This document shows positions 3,549 to 21,316 of a DNA stretch of 22,599 nt, in pieces (the first letter of the stretch is position 1; every line of letters begins with the position of its first letter). The notes under the pieces are model-generated. The model was not told the DNA's origin, ran no database searches, and saw only the letters and a program-made list of their open reading frames with translations. This DNA is from a virus. Both the position numbers and the translations under genes were made by a program. The DNA lies in the IMG/VR virus record IMGVR_UViG_3300006637_000036, positions 1 to 22,599 of that record. One strand, written 5' to 3'.

Positions 3549-6500
3549 TTATTTAGGCTTCCTTATGCTTTGTAGGTCTTTAGCTATAGCTGCCCCAATA
3601 CCGTACAGGCCTAAATTCTCTGTAGTGTTGCCTTTTCCGTACAACACCAGCTTCTCTAGATCAGTTGGGGCGTAATCGTTATTCTCAAACACATACCGCT
3701 GAAGTCTCTCTTTGTACTTCTTCATCTCTAGATCGGCCAGCGCACGATATTCCTTAGTTGCGCCTAGCCAAGTCGCTCGGGCGAATGGGCCCGTGTACTC
3801 GTTGTAACGTGCACGAATCAATTCCAACTCTTTATTCAGAATACTGTTCTTGTCTCGTCGTATGTCACTACTATTGGCTTTGTAATTGTCAAACTCAGTC
3901 TGTAGCTTTTCTGCCTTATCAACCGCCGCAGCCGCAGCATGTAACTCAGCGTATTCTCTAGCGTGGCGTTTAAGGAAGCGAACTCTCTCGTTAAGGCGGG
4001 TTTTCTTATCCGCGTCGGGTAACTCAAGGTACGTAGGGTCCTTTAGCAATTGGGAGCCTACTACTTCTATAGCAGGCGCTAGGTTTTGATTAATGTAGTC
4101 GTCAACTATAGGCTCCCCAGAAGCAGGGATAACTTCAAATTCAGTCAGGCCTAAGCGCAAATACTCCTTAGCTACTTCTGACTCACGGGGCATAGTGGCC
4201 GCACCTGTAAGCTGCTTAATCAGGCCACCGCTGACACGGGGCCCTGAAGTAAGCCCTGTATGTGCAATAGGCTGGTCTAAATCCCCACCCGGAAAATTCT
4301 TCTTTATGGTATTCCAAAACATTTCTTTTCCGCGCTCAACACTGCCGCTGCTTTCAAGGATGTTAGAGTCTCTAGCGTAGGCCATTTCCTTATCTACAAT
4401 GGAGACAATATCCTTAACCGTTCGGGGAATGGCTAGTGTGCCGCCGAGTAACTCTCCAAAAAACTTCCCGATGGCCTCGCCTGTATTTTCATCCGTACTG
4501 TCTTCTGACGCTATGGCGTCAAACACTCGATCAAGTATAATCGGCTGTAGCCCACTTCTACTATTGATGCCTATTACCGTCTTAAGGGTTTCCCATGACT
4601 TAAGAGCGGGGCCATTTCCCTCTTTATCTCGACTATGCCATTTAATAGCTAAATCAGCCACAGCAAGATACTGAGCAAAAGGAAATAGAGACCGCGCATC
4701 TTGTCCATCCAAGTCGTACCATTCCGTGTCTAGGTGCTGTGATCTATACCACATAGCGCCTCCCAAAGCTATGGTTCCGATAGTTCCCTCTGCTACAGAT
4801 TTAGCAAATTGCTCTTTAGTATGAGAGACTTCTCTTCTTAGGGCTGTAGCGATCCCTGCTTGTGTGAATTTAACTATGGGGTCTACGGGACTGTAACGCA
4901 TCTGCCACGCAAGAGCATTGTACATAAACCTCGGAAAAGGAACTGCCATAGAGCTAATAGGAGAAGTCTTATTAACAGCGTCAATTAAAGCTTTGCCTAT
5001 TCCGTGTGCTTCCTTGTTAGGCGTATATGCAAACGTATCCTTCAGAGAAGCATCTACTGCCTTGCGAAGGTGCTTACTATCCATTTTCATGCCAGACGCA
5101 ACAAACTTCTCAAGACTTATGGGGTTTTTTATAGACGCGTCGCTTTGTGTTCTAATAAGAGTGCGATTTACCTCAGCTACGAATCTCGCCCTACGATAAA
5201 AGCCGTCCGTTACAATGTTAAAGTGGTTGGCCATACGCACAAGTTTGGAAACTTCATCCGCGCCAGCCTCCTGCATTTGTCGGACTACCGCCTGACTAAG
5301 TTTAGGATTGCCCGATAGTATTTCTTCAAACATACTACGGGTCTTAGTGTCGTTAACTAGTGCCCCAACAACAGCAAATGTGTCTCTATACCAGTCGCCT
5401 AATGCCTGTTTGGTTTGTCCCTTCTGGAGAGCCCTGCCCCCGTAAATGTACGCATTTTCAAGCGCTGCGGCGGCCGTACCAAAGGTCAAGGAGCCCGCAG
5501 AACCAAGTACGTTTCTAACAGTAGTGGCAAAGCCACTAGTCAAAAGGGCTACTTTGTTTTGAGTTAACCATTTTGCCCTATGCCACCACCCCCTTGCCTC
5601 TTTGGCGCTAGGTTCATACTTTTCAAGGTGTACGCCAAGGGCTTTAGACAACTCATCTGGGACTAAAGTAAAGCGCTTAGCCGTTTTACCTGCTTGACTT
5701 GCTGCGCCCCCTTCTCCAGCAAGCCCTCTGCCCATTTTGCTCATGCCCTCTTTAAAACTGCTCTCAAGCAATCCGGGGTTATGCTTTAGTATTTGCGCCA
5801 TAGTTACAAAAGTATCAGTGCTAATATTGGCAGTGGATAAAACTCTCTCAAGGGTGTCTACATTCACCTTATCCCAATGAACCGTATCGCCACCAGCAAT
5901 GTCTTTAATAAAGTCAGCTACTGCGTGCATAAGAGGCTTGTTAGTCTTAGCGGCTTCACTATACTTAAGCGTGGCATTAAAAATGACATCCGCCTGAGGG
6001 TCAAACGCAAGACCTACAGCTCGTGCCGTCTTCATTTGATCCATTAATACTTGCTGAGAAGAGGACGCTATGTGGTAAGAAGCCGCTGCTAAATGCTGCC
6101 TAAGTACGGCTTCTTGCGCTTCTTCCCCTAACATTTCAACATCTGCTACTTGCTTCAACAGTCGCTCAACTGGCCCACCAATGCCCGCGTCAGGGGAGGG
6201 ATCAACGCCTGCTCGGAACTCCTCGACTCTCTTCAAAAGGTTTATGGCTTCTTTGTCTCCATAAGACGCGGCCTCTTTAACGTTAATATCGTGCAGAGAG
6301 CCTCTATACGGATCGACAACGGCTGCCTCTTTTACAGGCTTAAGATTGTAAAACTCTTTAGCTGTGTCCAGCTTCTTCATAAATACTTTCTTAGCGCCGA
6401 GAGCCGTTGTACCTCCCCCAAGAACTGCGCCTACACCAGTCTGTAGGGCAATGTCGCCAATGTCATATTCAAGTTTATTACGGTCGGAAGTAGGATCGTA

Positions 6501-7457
6501 GATACCAGTCTTAGGGTCAATGTAAGCCGCCCGCTCAGCAGCCTGATTTGCTAGTTCGATGCCTCCAGAACCAGCGCCTTCGACTACGCCAACCCATGCA
6601 GCTTGTTTCATGACCCTCTTACGCACATATGCCTTAAGGGCGGCTTCAGTAACTTCCTTAAGTAAAATCTTAGTAGCTGCGCCACCCACACCGCCCGTAG
6701 CAATAGCCGCTGCGGCACTAAAGAGATTTGTAGGATCAAGAACTCCAGCAAGAGCATAATCTTTAATCGACGATAGGGCGCTAAGGACGGACTGATCCGA
6801 AATGTTTGGAACATCTTCCTCAAATACGCGCATAGCAGCGCCTACAAGTTTTGCATTGTCTTCATCGGCCCCATACAAATTATACGTATCGCGCCCCGCT
6901 GTTCCTATGTTGGATTTACTCCATCTCATGTGAGTAGCAAAATCAGCGGCAAAATCTTCGTCTGATTGCCCTTCTTGCTGTTTAGTCCCATTAAGGGTGT
7001 AAAAAGCCCTACGAATAATGCGCATTTTTTCAGGGTCAATTACAATTTTAGAATAGCGGTCGTCGGTCGTAGGTTCCGTTGACGCAGGCCTGTCAAATTT
7101 ATAATTGTCTGCAAGTACCGGATCGTCCGTAGGCTGAGAAGCATCATCCGAAATAGGGGCGTCTTCAGTTACTTGCTCATCAGTAGAAGATGCTTGCTTA
7201 TATTGCCGCATACCTGCATCTGGCAAGTCAAGAACGGGAGGTGTGTAATCATCTTCTACAGGAACCTCCTCAGAAGAAGACACGTAGTCCCCTATAACGG
7301 GCGGCACATACTCGTCTTCTGAGGCTACCTCTTCTACTGCTTGCAGACCGTCTGTTGATGGGACTGCCGGCAAGTCTAGAACAGGAGGAGTGTAATCGTC
7401 TTCCTCCTCTTCATTAACGTACGGGTCCACAGATAGAAGTGTGTTGTTACTGGGCAT
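3549..7457 (-). CDS. Large internal virion / DNA-ejection protein
   Basis: 1302 residues from the ATG at 7457, which has AAGGTG a few bases upstream; a GTG two codons earlier is a poorer start. The first 80 residues are acidic with three copies of an E-D-x-Y-x-P-P-V motif (about 19-30, 47-56, 68-79). Glycine/alanine-rich hydrophobic stretches follow at about 247-266, 284-300 and 337-356, another near 631-660 (ALLTSGFATTVRNVLGSAGS) and one near 888-903 (GTIGTIALGGAMWYRS). The C-terminal 250 residues are charged and helical. The LTSxxxTxxRN string occurs in large phage virion proteins. By size, hydrophobic segments and place it corresponds to T7 gp16-type core protein that would help DNA cross the envelope. 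No lytic transglycosylase motif was found. It overlaps the 519-residue gene by 11 nt. Confidence 0.65.
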   Translation of the reverse strand: MPSNNTLLSVDPYVNEEEEDDYTPPVLDLPAVPSTDGLQAVEEVASEDEYVPPVIGDYVSSSEEVPVEDDYTPPVLDLPDAGMRQYKQASSTDEQVTEDAPISDDASQPTDDPVLADNYKFDRPASTEPTTDDRYSKIVIDPEKMRIIRRAFYTLNGTKQQEGQSDEDFAADFATHMRWSKSNIGTAGRDTYNLYGADEDNAKLVGAAMRVFEEDVPNISDQSVLSALSSIKDYALAGVLDPTNLFSAAAAIATGGVGGAATKILLKEVTEAALKAYVRKRVMKQAAWVGVVEGAGSGGIELANQAAERAAYIDPKTGIYDPTSDRNKLEYDIGDIALQTGVGAVLGGGTTALGAKKVFMKKLDTAKEFYNLKPVKEAAVVDPYRGSLHDINVKEAASYGDKEAINLLKRVEEFRAGVDPSPDAGIGGPVERLLKQVADVEMLGEEAQEAVLRQHLAAASYHIASSSQQVLMDQMKTARAVGLAFDPQADVIFNATLKYSEAAKTNKPLMHAVADFIKDIAGGDTVHWDKVNVDTLERVLSTANISTDTFVTMAQILKHNPGLLESSFKEGMSKMGRGLAGEGGAASQAGKTAKRFTLVPDELSKALGVHLEKYEPSAKEARGWWHRAKWLTQNKVALLTSGFATTVRNVLGSAGSLTFGTAAAALENAYIYGGRALQKGQTKQALGDWYRDTFAVVGALVNDTKTRSMFEEILSGNPKLSQAVVRQMQEAGADEVSKLVRMANHFNIVTDGFYRRARFVAEVNRTLIRTQSDASIKNPISLEKFVASGMKMDSKHLRKAVDASLKDTFAYTPNKEAHGIGKALIDAVNKTSPISSMAVPFPRFMYNALAWQMRYSPVDPIVKFTQAGIATALRREVSHTKEQFAKSVAEGTIGTIALGGAMWYRSQHLDTEWYDLDGQDARSLFPFAQYLAVADLAIKWHSRDKEGNGPALKSWETLKTVIGINSRSGLQPIILDRVFDAIASEDSTDENTGEAIGKFFGELLGGTLAIPRTVKDIVSIVDKEMAYARDSNILESSGSVERGKEMFWNTIKKNFPGGDLDQPIAHTGLTSGPRVSGGLIKQLTGAATMPRESEVAKEYLRLGLTEFEVIPASGEPIVDDYINQNLAPAIEVVGSQLLKDPTYLELPDADKKTRLNERVRFLKRHAREYAELHAAAAAVDKAEKLQTEFDNYKANSSDIRRDKNSILNKELELIRARYNEYTGPFARATWLGATKEYRALADLEMKKYKERLQRYVFENNDYAPTDLEKLVLYGKGNTTENLGLYGIGAAIAKDLQSIRKPK

Positions 7458-9006
7458 TTGCACCTTGCATTTTTTGAAGGGCTAGATCGAAGGCATTCAG
7501 AAATTCCCCCGACTTATTCATGAACCGAGCAGTAAGTTCAAAAGTGATACGGGCCTTTTCAATTGCAGATTTAGCTGCTGCGGCTTGTGCTTCGGGCGTC
7601 TTGTCTGCTCTGGCTTTTTCAGCTTCGACGGTTTTACTGATGTTTCGTTGAAGCCTGCTTACCAACGCATCACCTTCAAGGCCCTTTAGGTAGTATGTGT
7701 TTTCAAAGGCAACGTCATACACTTTGCGCTCCTCAGGAGGCATACCTAAGAGAACCGTAGAATTTTTATGAAGGACTTTACGGTTCTTTGGATCGTACAC
7801 AGCGGAGGACCTATACAGAGCCATTTGGTGTTGCTCAGCGATGGCCATTCTGTACTTAGGTACGTACACTTGAGTGATTAAGGCTTCTATAGGGTAGTCG
7901 CCATACTGGGTGCTTTTTGGGTCCAGCCCCATAATCCGCAAAATTGCCTCCTGCCTATCTCCCATTTGCTTAAGTTTTGTGCCTATTTTAAGGTCTGAGA
8001 TCATAGTAGTGCCTGTTCTAGCTTGAAACCACCCAAGCGGGTCAGTCAGTGCCTTTTCCATATTGACTTTGTCTGCTGAGTCCTTAATAGATGTAGTCAT
8101 GTAGTCGTAGTATCTTTTCGGTGCCTCTTGGGCCAGTTCTGGAGAAGACAGAATAAAGTTCTGTTGTATAGTAGTGTATGCGACTTCGGCCTCTTGCTTT
8201 TGTTCTGGAGGTACAGTAGGGTCGTTTAAAGTATCAAAATATACGCCTGCTGCCTTCTGAACCTCTCTGCTCGCGGCACTGAGTTTTCTGTCTTCTTGTT
8301 CTTGTATAAACTTAGCTCGGTCTCTAGTGTTTTTTTCTATTTGTATGGCATGCGTTTCTGCGTCACGCCTGCGTTTAATCTCAACATCTTTTCTGGCGGC
8401 TACAACATCCGGAGTAAGTTCACCGGGCTCAAATCTAATACTTTCGCCGATGTCTGCGCTAGTCTGCTCAGGAGCCGCCTCTACTGGGGTCTCTTCCTCC
8501 CCGGATGAAAACAAACTACCAATTGAGGACACAATACTATCTGCAATCGTAGGCTTCTTCTCAACAGGAGACGGCAAGGGGGCAACATCACGAGCCAAGA
8601 TATCTGCTAGAGCGCCGGGGTCCCATGCCTGCGTAGGCCTATTGGGGTCTGACGGAGCAGAACTAAAATACTTCTGCTTCAAGGGCTGTAACAGAGGACT
8701 ACCAGAGTCATACATTTTCCTTATAGAAGACACTGTCCCTTCAATCTCATCTACAGACTTGCCTTTAATCATTCTAGCTGCGTCTTGGTTAGAAATGTCT
8801 AACATAGACGACAACGACTTAATATGAGAAGTCATGGCCGTTCTAGTTTTCTTATACGTCTCAAGTTCAGCTTGGCGAGTCTCAAATTCAGACTGCCACT
8901 CGTGCTTCTTTTTATAACTTGCGAGGTCTCGACGCGACTCCTCTGCCGCATCGTACTCCTTGTTGAAGCCCTGCGAAAAACTATCGAAGAAAGAGTTTTT
9001 AGCCAT
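7447..9006 (-). CDS. Internal virion protein with coiled coils, 519 residues
   Basis: Mostly helical and highly charged, with probable coiled coils at about 15-70 (SRRDLASYKKKHEWQSEFET) and about 205-250 (VEIKRRRDAETHAIQIEKN), separated by an acidic Pro/Ser/Glu linker (about 140-200). The C-terminal half is alpha-rich, ending FLNAFDLALQKMQ. No signal peptide or membrane helix. There is no catalytic motif that I recognise. The neighbours are other internal proteins, and the start overlaps the end of the 188-residue gene through the shared string AATGGCTAA. A role as a core/ejection or tail-assembly protein is inferred from position and fold, by analogy with T7 gp14-gp15. Confidence 0.6.
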   Translation of the reverse strand: MAKNSFFDSFSQGFNKEYDAAEESRRDLASYKKKHEWQSEFETRQAELETYKKTRTAMTSHIKSLSSMLDISNQDAARMIKGKSVDEIEGTVSSIRKMYDSGSPLLQPLKQKYFSSAPSDPNRPTQAWDPGALADILARDVAPLPSPVEKKPTIADSIVSSIGSLFSSGEEETPVEAAPEQTSADIGESIRFEPGELTPDVVAARKDVEIKRRRDAETHAIQIEKNTRDRAKFIQEQEDRKLSAASREVQKAAGVYFDTLNDPTVPPEQKQEAEVAYTTIQQNFILSSPELAQEAPKRYYDYMTTSIKDSADKVNMEKALTDPLGWFQARTGTTMISDLKIGTKLKQMGDRQEAILRIMGLDPKSTQYGDYPIEALITQVYVPKYRMAIAEQHQMALYRSSAVYDPKNRKVLHKNSTVLLGMPPEERKVYDVAFENTYYLKGLEGDALVSRLQRNISKTVEAEKARADKTPEAQAAAAKSAIEKARITFELTARFMNKSGEFLNAFDLALQKMQGANAQ

Positions 9007-17805: not shown

Positions 17806-18531
17806 CTAGTAGCTAAACACTTTTCCAGAAAGTCGGTATTTTGAACGAATTACTTCTGTTCCACGGACACGATCATAGTTGTTAATCATGATCTTTCGCA
17901 TGTCCTCAAGATTATCTTCATATAATGCTTTCATCATATCAGCAGACTCTTTGTTGCTACGAAAAATATAAGCGTAGTACATAGCCTTAGCGTAAATTAC
18001 ATGACTGAATTTTTCAGGAATAACAGGCACATCGTTGTACGCGGAAAGTGATGCAGGGCTGCTGTAGTACTCATACGTTAGCGTGTACGCGGCGTCAGGG
18101 ACTGGGGAGACAATGTATTCCTCAGACGGAGTAAGCGTGACGTATTGTGGAATAGCCCGGATGCTAGTATCCGTTTCATACTCTTGATCTATAAAGTTGT
18201 TCAGGTACTCATGGTATTCAATGTATGTTAGACGCTGGGTGTTATTGCCAATAGTGTCATCTTGCTGAATGCGAAAACTGTAACGATCCACATATTTGTA
18301 GTCAGACTGAAGATTGTATCTAGAAGTTCCAACAACCAGAGTGTCATCTTGCGTAGTATGATTCCAAGGCCACGTAAACACGGATTGGTTAATGTCACGA
18401 ATGGCCTGATTTACTGCATCCTTAGCATGGGCGTAAAAGCCAATAGCAGTAGCAAAATTAGTGGAATTGAGTTCCACTTCGTTCAAAGGCCTATTAACTT
18501 GATTTACCAGCTCTAGAAAATTGTAAGTCAT
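17806..18531 (-). CDS. Tail tubular protein A (T7 gp11-like)
   Basis: 241 residues. It starts MTYNFLELVNQVNRPLNEVE, with AVNQAIRDINQSVFTWPWN next, the typical opening of podovirus tail tubular A proteins, which form the upper tail ring under the portal. The centre contains a strand-rich region (TLVVGTSRYNLQSDYKYVDR), and the end is helical with basic residues. Its place, immediately before tail tubular B and after the capsid unit, is the T7 gene 11 position. It is preceded by a strong terminator, so tail genes are read at a lower level than capsid genes unless a separate promoter exists. The ribosome site before the ATG is weak. Confidence 0.85.
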   Translation of the reverse strand: MTYNFLELVNQVNRPLNEVELNSTNFATAIGFYAHAKDAVNQAIRDINQSVFTWPWNHTTQDDTLVVGTSRYNLQSDYKYVDRYSFRIQQDDTIGNNTQRLTYIEYHEYLNNFIDQEYETDTSIRAIPQYVTLTPSEEYIVSPVPDAAYTLTYEYYSSPASLSAYNDVPVIPEKFSHVIYAKAMYYAYIFRSNKESADMMKALYEDNLEDMRKIMINNYDRVRGTEVIRSKYRLSGKVFSY

Positions 18532-18563
18532 ATTAATGGGCCCTATAATCAGAAACAGAGTAA

Positions 18564-18587
18564 GGGGACCCTCCGAAGAGAGCCCCC
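18564..18587 (-). terminator. Rho-independent terminator with UUCG loop
   Basis: On the minus strand GGGGGCUCUC, UUCG loop, GAGGGUCCCC forms a 10-bp stem (two G-U pairs) closed by the very stable C(UUCG)G tetraloop, followed by UUACUCUGUUU. It lies 34 nt after the stop of the decoration-like gene and about 33 nt before the tail tubular A start. The broken U run suggests partial rather than full termination, so read-through would still supply tail genes. The same place is held by the T-phi terminator in T7. Confidence 0.8.
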
Positions 18588-18620
18588 AAACCCTTGTAGT
18601 TAACGATTAGCGCGGTAAAG

Positions 18621-19115
18621 TTAAGCGAGGCGATCTCGATCAACTTCATTAGCAGTAACGTCACCAACGTCGTCAATGTCCATACAGACAGCCCAGCAGC
18701 GAAGTTTGCCAGTGAGCGTAGTGCCCGTCTGAGCGGCAATCAGCACGTCGATGGTGTCAGCCGTCCCACCAACAACCACCGGAGTACCAGCAGCCGGCTG
18801 AGAGTAGTCACCAACAGACGCAGCATCGAAGTCAAAGCCGTCAACGAAGGCGTCAACATCCCCGCCAGTCAGACCGAAGTCCAACGCGCAGTCGGTGGAC
18901 GTACCCGTATGAGCGCCCGTAACTTCAAAGCCAGCACTAAGGATCACCGTGTTAGCCGGAATGGTAAGGACCGGAATAACATCCGAAGCAGCCAGAGCCG
19001 TGCCCTTATCCGTAACAGCAGTAGCGAAATCCAGTTCGTGCTGAATGTAGTAAGGCTGACGACCATTAGCATTAGCGCCATGAGAGACAGAGGTAGTATT
19101 ATCACCCAATGCCAT
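18621..19115 (-). CDS. Probable capsid decoration/accessory protein
   Basis: 164 residues, beta-rich and short of charged residues. The core SDVIPVLTIPANTVILSAGF, with CALDFGLTGGDVDAFVDGFD following, is a pattern I know from small structural proteins placed next to capsid genes in marine phages. It starts 12 nt after the capsid stop with GGAGAA upstream, and is followed by the terminator, so it is co-transcribed with the capsid. This close linkage suggests large amounts and a role on the capsid surface, such as decoration or cement. A head-fibre role is the alternative. No signal sequence. Confidence 0.65.
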   Translation of the reverse strand: MALGDNTTSVSHGANANGRQPYYIQHELDFATAVTDKGTALAASDVIPVLTIPANTVILSAGFEVTGAHTGTSTDCALDFGLTGGDVDAFVDGFDFDAASVGDYSQPAAGTPVVVGGTADTIDVLIAAQTGTTLTGKLRCWAVCMDIDDVGDVTANEVDRDRLA

Positions 19116-19127
19116 TATGAGTTCTCC

Positions 19128-20210
19128 TTACACCAAGTTGTAAATGGCACGAGCAATACCCTCAGGCTTGAGGATTTTACGGCCATACAAATGCATCCCG
19201 CGAACGAGGTCGCCGAAGCTGTTGGGATTGCGGAACGATTCAACCTTGTTGATCTGCTCAGCAGTAGCAACGCAGCTAGCGTGGCCGGCAGCGATAACAC
19301 CGAAGTTACTCGCATTCGTGCCACCCGTAGTAGCGGGGCCAGTACCGATAGACGGAAGGTTGTTGCTCTTGTAGACGCGGAAACCGTGCAGGTCAGGAAG
19401 AACCATACCATTACGGAGTTCACGAGCACCGCCGCCTTCATAGTTGAAGAGACGGCTGTCTTCGTCCTTAAGGATTTCGCAGAAGACCGGATCAATAACC
19501 AGCCAACGGCCCTCAGTCGGGACATTTTGCTGATCGAGGAGACGATCCATACGAGCGATAACCGTAAGAGCAAAGGCATTACCAGCAGTAGCCGACTTCG
19601 TAGCCGTAGCGCCACCGGCGCGCGGCTCAATACCAATGGACGAATTGGCGGAACCCGCCGTACCCGACGTATTGGTGAAGTCCGACGCGTCAAGCTTCAT
19701 GCTAGCCAGCAGTTCGTCACTGTCGGCAGTCGAAACCGCCTTGGTGCCCGAAGCCGTGGTACGAGCCGTGTCAGCAACAGCGCCAAGCGTGGACTGCTGA
19801 TAACCCGTCATGTAACCAAGAACATCCATGTCGAAGTTATCCGACAGGCTGTACGCAGCACGATTCGACGCAAGCGACTCAAAGTTCACATGAGAATGCG
19901 CCGCTTCAATGTCGTCAACGGCAAACGCAAAGTAGTTAGCCTTGTCAACCACAAGAGTGAAATCCTCATCGTCGAGGTCTTGCGGCTGAATGACCGTACC
20001 ACGAGCGTACGCCTTAACCGTGATTTCCGGCTCTTTGATGATCTTAACAGAGTCGCCAAAGTTAGCAATTTCGCCGAAGTAGTCAGAATTGGTGATGTCC
20101 TGCGCGACCGACTTGGTACGGAAGGCAAGCTGCACCTGTTTGCTGTAAATTACGGGGCTGAAATTGCCGTTAGGCAGATTGCCATTACCCGCAGCAGATT
20201 GAAACGCCAT
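19128..20210 (-). CDS. Major capsid protein (HK97-fold type)
   Basis: 360 residues. It begins MAFQSAAGNGNLPNGNFSPV, then FRTKSVAQDITNSDYFGEIA, an N-arm and strand region followed by the conserved IQPQDLDDEDFTLVVDKANY and AFAVDDIEAAH, typical of podovirus major capsid proteins. The following helix is the long spine of the HK97 fold (SLASNRAAYSLSDNFDMDVL). The end reads GMHLYGRKILKPEGIARAIY. It comes directly after the scaffold gene and before the decoration gene. The upstream gap of 251 nt with a promoter and hairpins suggests it is highly and separately expressed. AAGGA lies 9 nt before the ATG. Confidence 0.88.
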   Translation of the reverse strand: MAFQSAAGNGNLPNGNFSPVIYSKQVQLAFRTKSVAQDITNSDYFGEIANFGDSVKIIKEPEITVKAYARGTVIQPQDLDDEDFTLVVDKANYFAFAVDDIEAAHSHVNFESLASNRAAYSLSDNFDMDVLGYMTGYQQSTLGAVADTARTTASGTKAVSTADSDELLASMKLDASDFTNTSGTAGSANSSIGIEPRAGGATATKSATAGNAFALTVIARMDRLLDQQNVPTEGRWLVIDPVFCEILKDEDSRLFNYEGGGARELRNGMVLPDLHGFRVYKSNNLPSIGTGPATTGGTNASNFGVIAAGHASCVATAEQINKVESFRNPNSFGDLVRGMHLYGRKILKPEGIARAIYNLV

Positions 20211-20292
20211 TTTGAGTAATCCTTAGTAGCGTTACAGATGCTAACTTCCAATAACCACATAATGGGCGGCTAACTCGGATCAGGGTGCGAAG

Positions 20293-20320
20293 TAGAGAGG
20301 AGATGGCCGTCTCCCCTTTA
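20293..20320 (-). promoter_or_regulatory. Stem-loop in capsid leader
   Basis: On the minus strand GGGGAGA (20316-20310) and TCTCCTC (20303-20297) can pair around a CGGCCA loop: 7 bp including one G-U, with extra pairs outside broken by mismatches. It is followed by UCUACUUCGC, with too few U to be a clear terminator. It lies about 90 nt before the capsid ATG and could stabilise the messenger or act as a processing site. Confidence 0.4.
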
Positions 20321-20373
20321 CTCGGGCCTTTAGGTTAGGTAGGTCCTAAGGTATTGTAGTTGCGTTTTAGTAA

Positions 20374-20412
20374 CTTAATGTAGAGGTGTCCATAAAGGGG
20401 CTATACATTAAG
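20374..20412. repeat. 9-bp perfect inverted repeat
   Basis: CTTAATGTA (20374-20382) and TACATTAAG (20404-20412) are exact inverse copies 21 nt apart. They lie just downstream (minus direction) of the promoter at 20455-20428, where a repressor or activator could act, or where the nascent leader RNA could fold. Together with 20293-20320 and a smaller CCTTAGG/CCTAAAGG pair at 20351-20327, this makes the capsid leader unusually structured. Confidence 0.5.
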
Positions 20413-20427
20413 CTGAGTGTAATTCCG

Positions 20428-20455
20428 GGTATACTCACAATTTTAAGAATGTCAA
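20428..20455 (-). promoter_or_regulatory. Sigma70-type promoter for capsid unit
   Basis: On the minus strand the perfect -35 hexamer TTGACA (20455-20450) is followed by a 16-nt spacer and TATACC (20433-20428), four of six matches to TATAAT. It starts 6 nt after the scaffold stop and reads towards the capsid gene through a leader of about 210 nt. The position equals that of the T7 gene 10 promoter, but the sequence is of bacterial type; no T7-family promoter consensus is seen. Confidence 0.6.
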
Positions 20456-20461
20456 CACTTA

Positions 20462-21316
20462 TTATCGTGCGCCACCGGAAATATCGTAAACAAAAGTGTT
20501 TTTACGCATGGAATCGTGAATAGCTTCCTTGTGCTTCTCGTATTCAGCCACGGACATGGCCTCAACTTGCGATTCACTAAAGCCACCTTCGCCAGTCTCA
20601 GCAGGAGAATTACGATTGCCCTTGCCCACAAGAGTTGCAGCTTTAGCATCTGCACTCTTCTTAGTTTTAGGTTTGCTTTTCTTGGCTTGGTCTGCCTTAT
20701 ACAAGTCAATAGCTCGGGCAGCAGCCTTAGCATCTGTATCGTTTTCATACAGAGCGTCTTGCACCCACTTAGGTTGCTCGCCAGCCCAATCGTGAAACTC
20801 GTCACTATCTCTAATCTCATCAATGTCTGGATGGAAACTAAGCAATTCCTGTTCAGCCCGTGCTACAAGCGTATCACGTTCGCGCTGATCTAGCTCCTCA
20901 AAACGAGACGAGAGAGTAGCACTCTGTTCCGCCGCCTTCTTAGAAGCCAACGTCTCAATGATGCTAGCCAATTCTGGATTGTCCTTCATCCACGTTTCAA
21001 GTTCATCGTCAGACTTAGGAACCGTCACTGACGTAGAAGCGGCACTTTTTGCTTCTAGCTCTTCGATACGTTTCAGAAGTTCCTGTTCCTTCTGCTGCGT
21101 GTGACGGCGAAGGTCTCCATAGCGCTTCTTAAACGTACGCTCTTCGGCAGAGGCAGGCTCTTCTTCCACAACCTCCTTAACAACAGGCTCCTTACGCGCT
21201 TCAAGAAGTTCTGCAAGTTCGTCTTCGTCCCGTTTGATACGATCCTCATTGGCGTAAGGCTTGTTCATAAAAGCGACACGCTTCGGAGTATTCTCAATAA
21301 CCATAGCTTCCGACAT
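20462..21316 (-). CDS. Scaffold protein
   Basis: 284 residues, very acidic and helical. Landmarks: an acidic N-terminus (RIKRDEDELAELLEARKEPV), a coiled coil at about 60-95 (RTFKKRYGDLRRHTQQKEQE), an acidic middle (ELLSFHPDIDEIRDSDEFHD with WAGEQPKWVQDALYE), and a basic Lys-rich stretch (KADQAKKSKPKTKKSADAK) before an end with a helix (EYEKHKEAIHDSMRKN). These are the features of podovirus scaffold proteins, which guide procapsid assembly through a basic C-terminal part and then leave. It directly precedes the capsid gene, as expected. GGAG lies 10 nt before the ATG. Confidence 0.82.
   Translation of the reverse strand: MSEAMVIENTPKRVAFMNKPYANEDRIKRDEDELAELLEARKEPVVKEVVEEEPASAEERTFKKRYGDLRRHTQQKEQELLKRIEELEAKSAASTSVTVPKSDDELETWMKDNPELASIIETLASKKAAEQSATLSSRFEELDQRERDTLVARAEQELLSFHPDIDEIRDSDEFHDWAGEQPKWVQDALYENDTDAKAAARAIDLYKADQAKKSKPKTKKSADAKAATLVGKGNRNSPAETGEGGFSESQVEAMSVAEYEKHKEAIHDSMRKNTFVYDISGGAR

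Follow-up and report, generated by a model that had tools for sequence, protein, structure and literature searches.

A conserved, predicted RNA structure between a sigma-70-type promoter and the capsid gene of HMO-2011-type phages

Genes and boundaries of the capsid unit

The sequence analyzed here (the window) spans an entire IMG/VR record (22,599 bases), which is a 22.6-kb piece of the genome of an HMO-2011-type podophage. Its structural genes are carried on the minus strand. The genes for MazG, the tail proteins, the adaptor, the small protein, the capsid and the scaffold have the same order and strands as in HMO-2011; by identity and synteny, the window has the capsid and structural gene order of this phage in a record without the replication region. 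The major capsid protein (360 aa; 19128..20210, minus strand) was assigned to PHROG 267 (E 3e-59), is weakly P22-like, and shows 70.8% and 69.4% identity over its full length (100%) to the capsid proteins of Roseobacter phage CRP-345 and Puniceispirillum phage HMO-2011, respectively. No match to the T7 capsid family was found for it in Pfam and PHROG searches. A Shine-Dalgarno-like AAGGA could be read at 20220..20224 (minus strand). The capsid gene is followed by an open reading frame for a small protein of 164 aa (18621..19115, minus strand), which had no match in Pfam and PHROG searches and is by position a probable decoration protein. The gene before the unit (20462..21316, minus strand), considered as the scaffold gene by position, matched PHROG 13678 (E 1e-47), for which no function is assigned. 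The first gene past the unit (17806..18531, minus strand) had been named tail tubular A in the original prediction; Pfam identified the product as an SU10-type head-tail adaptor (PF24175, E 6e-22). No tRNA or tmRNA was detected in the five sources scanned. It should also be noted that HMO-2011-type contigs (L095, L096, L097 and L100) were present inside MAGs named Euryarchaeota, Gammaproteobacteria, Bacteroidetes and Blastopirellula, probably due to mis-binning.

Between the scaffold and capsid genes, a promoter of TTGACA type and of bacterial character had been predicted, and both points are borne out by the relatives. The window carries the −35 element TTGACA (20450..20455) and the −10 element TATACC (20428..20433) with a 16-nt spacer, that is, a promoter at 20455-20428 on the minus strand. 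As a match in a single sequence it is unremarkable: a consensus scan of the window listed 28 promoter-like sites against 22.3 expected and did not list this one, because its −10 element does not end in T. Comparison with relatives made it significant. TTGACA-N16/17-TATAAC was observed ∼200-320 nt before the capsid codon in 77 of 80 relatives (TATACC being the form in the window's own record), and the remaining three had less than 200 nt of upstream sequence. For statistical analysis, the 187 loci in which the capsid start could be used were reduced to 161 distinct upstream regions and then to 67 cluster representatives. TTGACA was present in 60 of the 67, and TATAAC and the 16-nt spacer were each found in 58 of the 63 promoter-bearing representatives. 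A strict promoter test was passed by 58 of 67 representatives versus 39 of 670 random 330-nt windows, and four (CRP-212, CRP-738, CRP-3 and phiM6) had no promoter even at a looser cut-off. The sigma-70-like TTGACA/TATAAC type is therefore kept across relatives. The late strand of HMO-2011 (NC_021864.1) contains two more sigma-70-like TTGACA-TATAA sites (53369-53396 and 31727-31754, minus strand); the capsid promoter thus probably belongs to a small set of promoters on this strand. The available portions of PMC9038755, PMC6918029, PMC8528129 and PMC6256558 yielded no passage on promoters or terminators of HMO-2011-group phages.

The original prediction had left room for a phage-encoded single-subunit RNA polymerase elsewhere in the genome. 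In profile searches, none of 13 complete related phages and three contigs had the corresponding family (PF00940), and the same search was positive in Vibrio phage CHOED, so that 16 of the 17 related records lacked it. It was also absent from the window, a fragment for which the state of the whole genome is judged from its relatives. The window encodes a 1304-aa probable internal virion protein (3549-7463) without a match in PHROG and solved-structure searches; these searches gave no sign of a phage polymerase within this protein, although a diverged one could have escaped them.

At the other end of the unit, a UUCG hairpin (18557..18594, minus strand; inner stem 18587-18564) lies before the adaptor gene at a conserved position, where a strong terminator had been predicted. 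The stability and conservation of the hairpin were supported. This G+C-rich hairpin folds at −26.5 kcal/mol (z −4.64), a stability reached by 0 of 200 shuffles; the T run that follows is poor (TTACTCTGTTTC; the U-tract directly after the stem reads TTACTCTG), and a terminator scan of the window did not list the hairpin. With such a weak U-tract, it is best described as a probable terminator or 3′-end hairpin. Of 110 distinct relatives, 80 carried a hairpin of −17 kcal/mol or better in the 100 nt that precede the adaptor gene, compared with 18 of 550 shuffled sequences, and its loop was mostly GCAA (41) or UUCG (13). Among these 80 relatives, at least five of the first eight positions after the hairpin were T in 35, four in 21 and fewer in 24. 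The other 30 included 16 with a hairpin 430-550 nt after the capsid gene, two with one directly after the capsid gene, six with none after the decoration or capsid gene, and six left out of the scan because the region was too long. Since a hairpin follows the decoration or capsid gene in 18 of these, the capsid unit tends to be closed by a hairpin even where genes intervene before the adaptor (for example, CRP-345). Thus, both boundaries of the unit as originally proposed, the promoter and the end hairpin, are conserved in relatives.

Structure and occurrence of the leader

The unusual part of the capsid unit is a feature that the original prediction did not mention, a conserved leader that appeared when the interval between promoter and capsid gene was aligned across relatives. 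As judged from covariation, the ∼200 nt between the promoter and the capsid codon are a conserved structured RNA. Its 5′ end, which is also that of the predicted transcript, forms the hairpin P1 (20372..20414, minus strand, from folding and covariation), which occurs in two types among relatives and in the window has an internal loop of CC opposite ACAC. The structured core follows (20235..20364, minus strand), comprising in 5′ to 3′ order an outer helix (GCAAAC/GUUUGC), P3, P4 (CUGA/UCAG), P5 and P6 on either side of an internal loop CC/CAC, and the hairpin P7, whose apical loop CGGCCA (20304..20309, minus strand, placed by alignment) contains the self-complementary GGCC. P7 is followed by an invariant AUCUG and then by the ribosome site. 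An internal loop of CC opposite (N)AC recurs at conserved positions in type II P1 and in P5 and, reversed, at P4.

Covariation was measured in an alignment of 37 core sequences (36 distinct; A1) that was not fitted to structure, and in alignments fitted to the model (A2, A7 and A8); related contigs are not independent, and clustering was applied to the promoter counts only. In A1, 88.9% of cells at 32 pairs were paired versus 27.6-42.2% when partners were slid by 1-3 columns, 119 cells had changed on both sides versus a mean of 40 in shuffles, and the covariation score was 0.337 versus 0.158 in shuffles (0 of 500 as high). With 62 distinct model-aligned sequences, 96.2% of cells were paired and 23 of 25 pairs had changed on both sides; for P1, the corresponding fractions were 10 of 10 pairs in type II and 9 of 13 in type I. 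The ten top column pairs in a mutual-information scan of A2 were all model pairs. G-U cells exceeded A-C cells (110 versus 21 in A2, 77 versus 16 in A1), which indicates that the capsid-sense strand is the folding strand, as RNA. A second subfamily of 18 contigs (15 aligned) had a similar architecture, with 97.1% of cells paired and 5 of 25 pairs changed on both sides. Folding energy of the leader was only moderately below that of shuffles (mean z −2.1; window z −2.0).

Several candidate elements were discarded. Helices P2b and P4b, in which 74% and 66% of cells pair, were dropped from the models. A pseudoknot of UGGCC with the loop GGCCA fails in A1, where a 5′ part UAGCC co-occurs with the loop UGUACA. 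The CUGANGA of some members recalls a hammerhead ribozyme; by eye this motif is not kept, and Rfam gave no match. The leaders of two contigs (L061 and L073) have an enlarged P1 region, and that of L061 seems to repeat a P1-like segment.

To examine the occurrence of the leader, we used three models. R1, whose training included the window's own locus, scored 70.4 bits on the window core. R2, from whose construction the window and its duplicate were excluded, recovered 20235-20364 at 53.2 bits (E 2.7e-8), and R3, the sequence-only version of the R2 alignment without base pairs, gave 29.4 bits. For isolates outside its training, R2 scored 112.5 bits on HMO-2011, 74.1 on CRP-1, 71.6 on CRP-345, 46.4 on ctYwJ313, 34.9 on CRP-212 and 30.9 on CRP-9. 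Scores for CRP-3, phiM6 and CRP-2 were 18-23 bits, which are not significant by themselves, and each match lies directly before the capsid gene. R2 found no match in N3_13, CRP-738, two pelagiphages, CHOED, three contigs of the second subfamily and the MAG contigs L095 and L096, and R1 missed the 18-contig second subfamily, N3_13 and CRP-738. A single R1 match per record was obtained in 14 of 18 whole records, and no further copy elsewhere in the genome was found in any of the 18. In new viral contigs, a core sequence pattern occurred in at least 106 places; among the matches listed, 101 had a capsid start 60-250 nt downstream, four were at contig ends, and one without a capsid (L176), in a whole record without an R1 match, was taken as chance. 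No Rfam family matched the window at the gathering threshold, laxer searches giving weak, chance-level matches only, and the titles and abstract openings found in the literature, in which coverage of subscription papers is thin, described no such capsid leader.

Exceptional arrangements were also observed. In ctYwJ313 (MW202701.1), an annotated HNH-type endonuclease gene (2315-2884) separates the promoter and P1 from the core, which still adjoins the capsid gene. In the MAG contig L100 (4784-6001), the core lies ∼1 kb before the matched part of the capsid, and what appears by eye to be a homing-endonuclease-like protein is encoded between them. The pelagiphages HTVC033P and HTVC115P have related capsids and gaps of only 31 and ∼60 nt, respectively, without an R2 match, so the leader is dispensable within the capsid lineage.

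The apical loop of P7 showed a further regularity. Among six-base P7 loops, the central tetranucleotide was self-complementary in 105 of 106 (GGCC, GCGC or GUAC), with a chance expectation of 0.08 per loop; loops were counted in 168 matches (124 distinct), that is, 175 minus five antisense echoes and two spurious places. UGCA and AGCU were loop centres in other members, and three long P7 loops (CRP-1, CRP-345 and L007) contained UGAUCA. Exceptions were ctYwJ313 (GGCA), CRP-212 (CGGCGG) and phiM6 (ACCAGAG), and in the second subfamily UAGCUA is self-complementary and UCGCUA, UUGCUA and UCGCAA are not. Two neighbouring columns of the loop (70-71) covary, reading GC, UA or CG, which is impossible as pairing within one molecule. 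Since loops are shared by descent among relatives, the independent evidence amounts to a handful of loop types. According to the accessible part of PMC7357161, RNA dimers are known to make contact through palindromic loops of two to six bases. The self-complementary P7 loop hints at RNA dimers, and the leader may dimerize through it.

Possible roles of the leader

On balance, we consider it probable that the unit combines a host-read promoter, a structured leader of ∼200 nt that acts in cis on the capsid mRNA and is a likely site for a phage factor, and an end hairpin. Host RNA polymerase would read the extra sigma-70-type promoter and produce a capsid gene transcript, the 5′ part of which would fold into P1 and then into a long closed domain, with the ribosome site immediately after it. 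The transcript would run on through the capsid and decoration genes and end at, or be processed to, the stable tetraloop hairpin. The leader would act in cis, most likely as the target of a factor that the phage encodes, for which the capsid or scaffolding protein is the first candidate; once bound, this factor would adjust translation or lifetime of the capsid mRNA to assembly. The leader is kept in CRP-1, CRP-3, CRP-212 and CRP-2, where a separate decoration gene is not annotated, which makes the decoration protein a poor candidate ligand. The predicted unpaired probability of the Shine-Dalgarno sequence was 0.36 in the whole leader and 0.30 in the last 60 nt; accessibility is thus not lowered by the leader, and simple sequestration is not indicated.

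Other roles were weighed against such cis-acting control of the capsid mRNA, which remains the most likely function of the leader. P1 and the closing 3′ hairpin might shield a very abundant mRNA from ribonucleases without any specific partner. P1 starts a few nucleotides past the predicted transcript start, covariation in its stem is free, and the loops of the 3′ hairpin are of stable UUCG or GNRA type, as expected of such an element; however, the long invariant unpaired stretches and internal loops exceed the needs of protection, and we regard shielding as an unlikely, still credible role. A specific partner is favoured by the complexity of the leader, by its constant position next to the ribosome site and by its presence in phages for which no separate decoration gene is annotated. 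In another reading, the leaders would form a new RNA family: capsid mRNAs would pair with one another by kissing loops (GGCC, GUAC, GCGC, UGCA or AGCU), the CC/(N)AC internal loops (up to three per RNA) would serve as a shared receptor, and mRNA concentration or a bound assembly protein would set capsid output, a scheme that seems doubtful to us.

The leader has a sigma-70-type promoter immediately before it and a conserved terminator-like hairpin farther downstream, an arrangement that would also suit an RNA that binds host RNA polymerase while nascent, so that the enzyme ignores downstream pauses and terminators, including the hairpin before the adaptor gene. As described in the available text of PMC9378689, the put RNA of HK022 acts in cis without a phage protein and is found on early promoters, whereas the leader is single-copy, lies just before the ribosome site and is about three times as long as put (∼70 nt, two stem-loops), making such a function improbable. 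The stable, compact domain might also be released as a separate small RNA or virion RNA acting in trans, if transcription terminated or the transcript were processed ahead of the capsid gene; this has a precedent for phage structural RNA in phi29 prohead RNA (PMC7357161, accessible part). We consider this quite improbable, given that the leader adjoins the capsid gene and its ribosome site and that the scan of the window listed no terminator-like site on the minus strand between the core and the start codon. Finally, inverted repeats near structural genes, together with the integrase of HMO-2011 and CRP-345, could suggest an origin, packaging or attachment site functioning as DNA; the excess of G-U over A-C cells and the fixed order of promoter, leader and ribosome site render it highly improbable.

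HMO-2011-type phages are a very common ocean virus group infecting bacteria. If a structured RNA determines their capsid level, this would be a control point in a major marine phage group and an example of a tailed-phage capsid gene under complex RNA regulation. It would also suggest a route by which a phage without its own polymerase gives its capsid gene a dose of its own.

Comparison with known systems

In T7, the phi10 promoter, gene 10 and the T-phi terminator form a unit that is read by the phage's own polymerase. By analogy only, the HMO-2011-type capsid unit resembles it: both have a promoter before and a terminator or terminator-like element after the capsid gene, here recognized by sequence and position. 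T7 differs in having its own polymerase rather than a sigma-70-type promoter in phages where PF00940 was not found, and in its capsid family; the long structured leader occurs only here. Autogenous RNA operators, such as ribosomal protein leaders and the MS2 coat operator, likewise place a structured site ahead of a highly expressed structural gene, whereas the leader described here is much larger, has a putative ligand only and belongs to the capsid gene of a tailed dsDNA phage.

The HIV-1 DIS, the hatchet ribozyme and the guanidine-II riboswitch, as presented in the accessible part of PMC7357161, share with the leader an apical loop that is self-complementary and in most cases flanked by an A on its 3′ side. 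These RNAs form dimers, whereas the likeness of the leader to them lies in the loop sequence alone. HK022 put, of which two copies are associated with early promoters in the available text of PMC9378689, is similar in that a structured RNA immediately follows a sigma-70-type phage promoter; the leader differs in its length of ∼200 nt, its single copy and its place before the ribosome site of the capsid gene.
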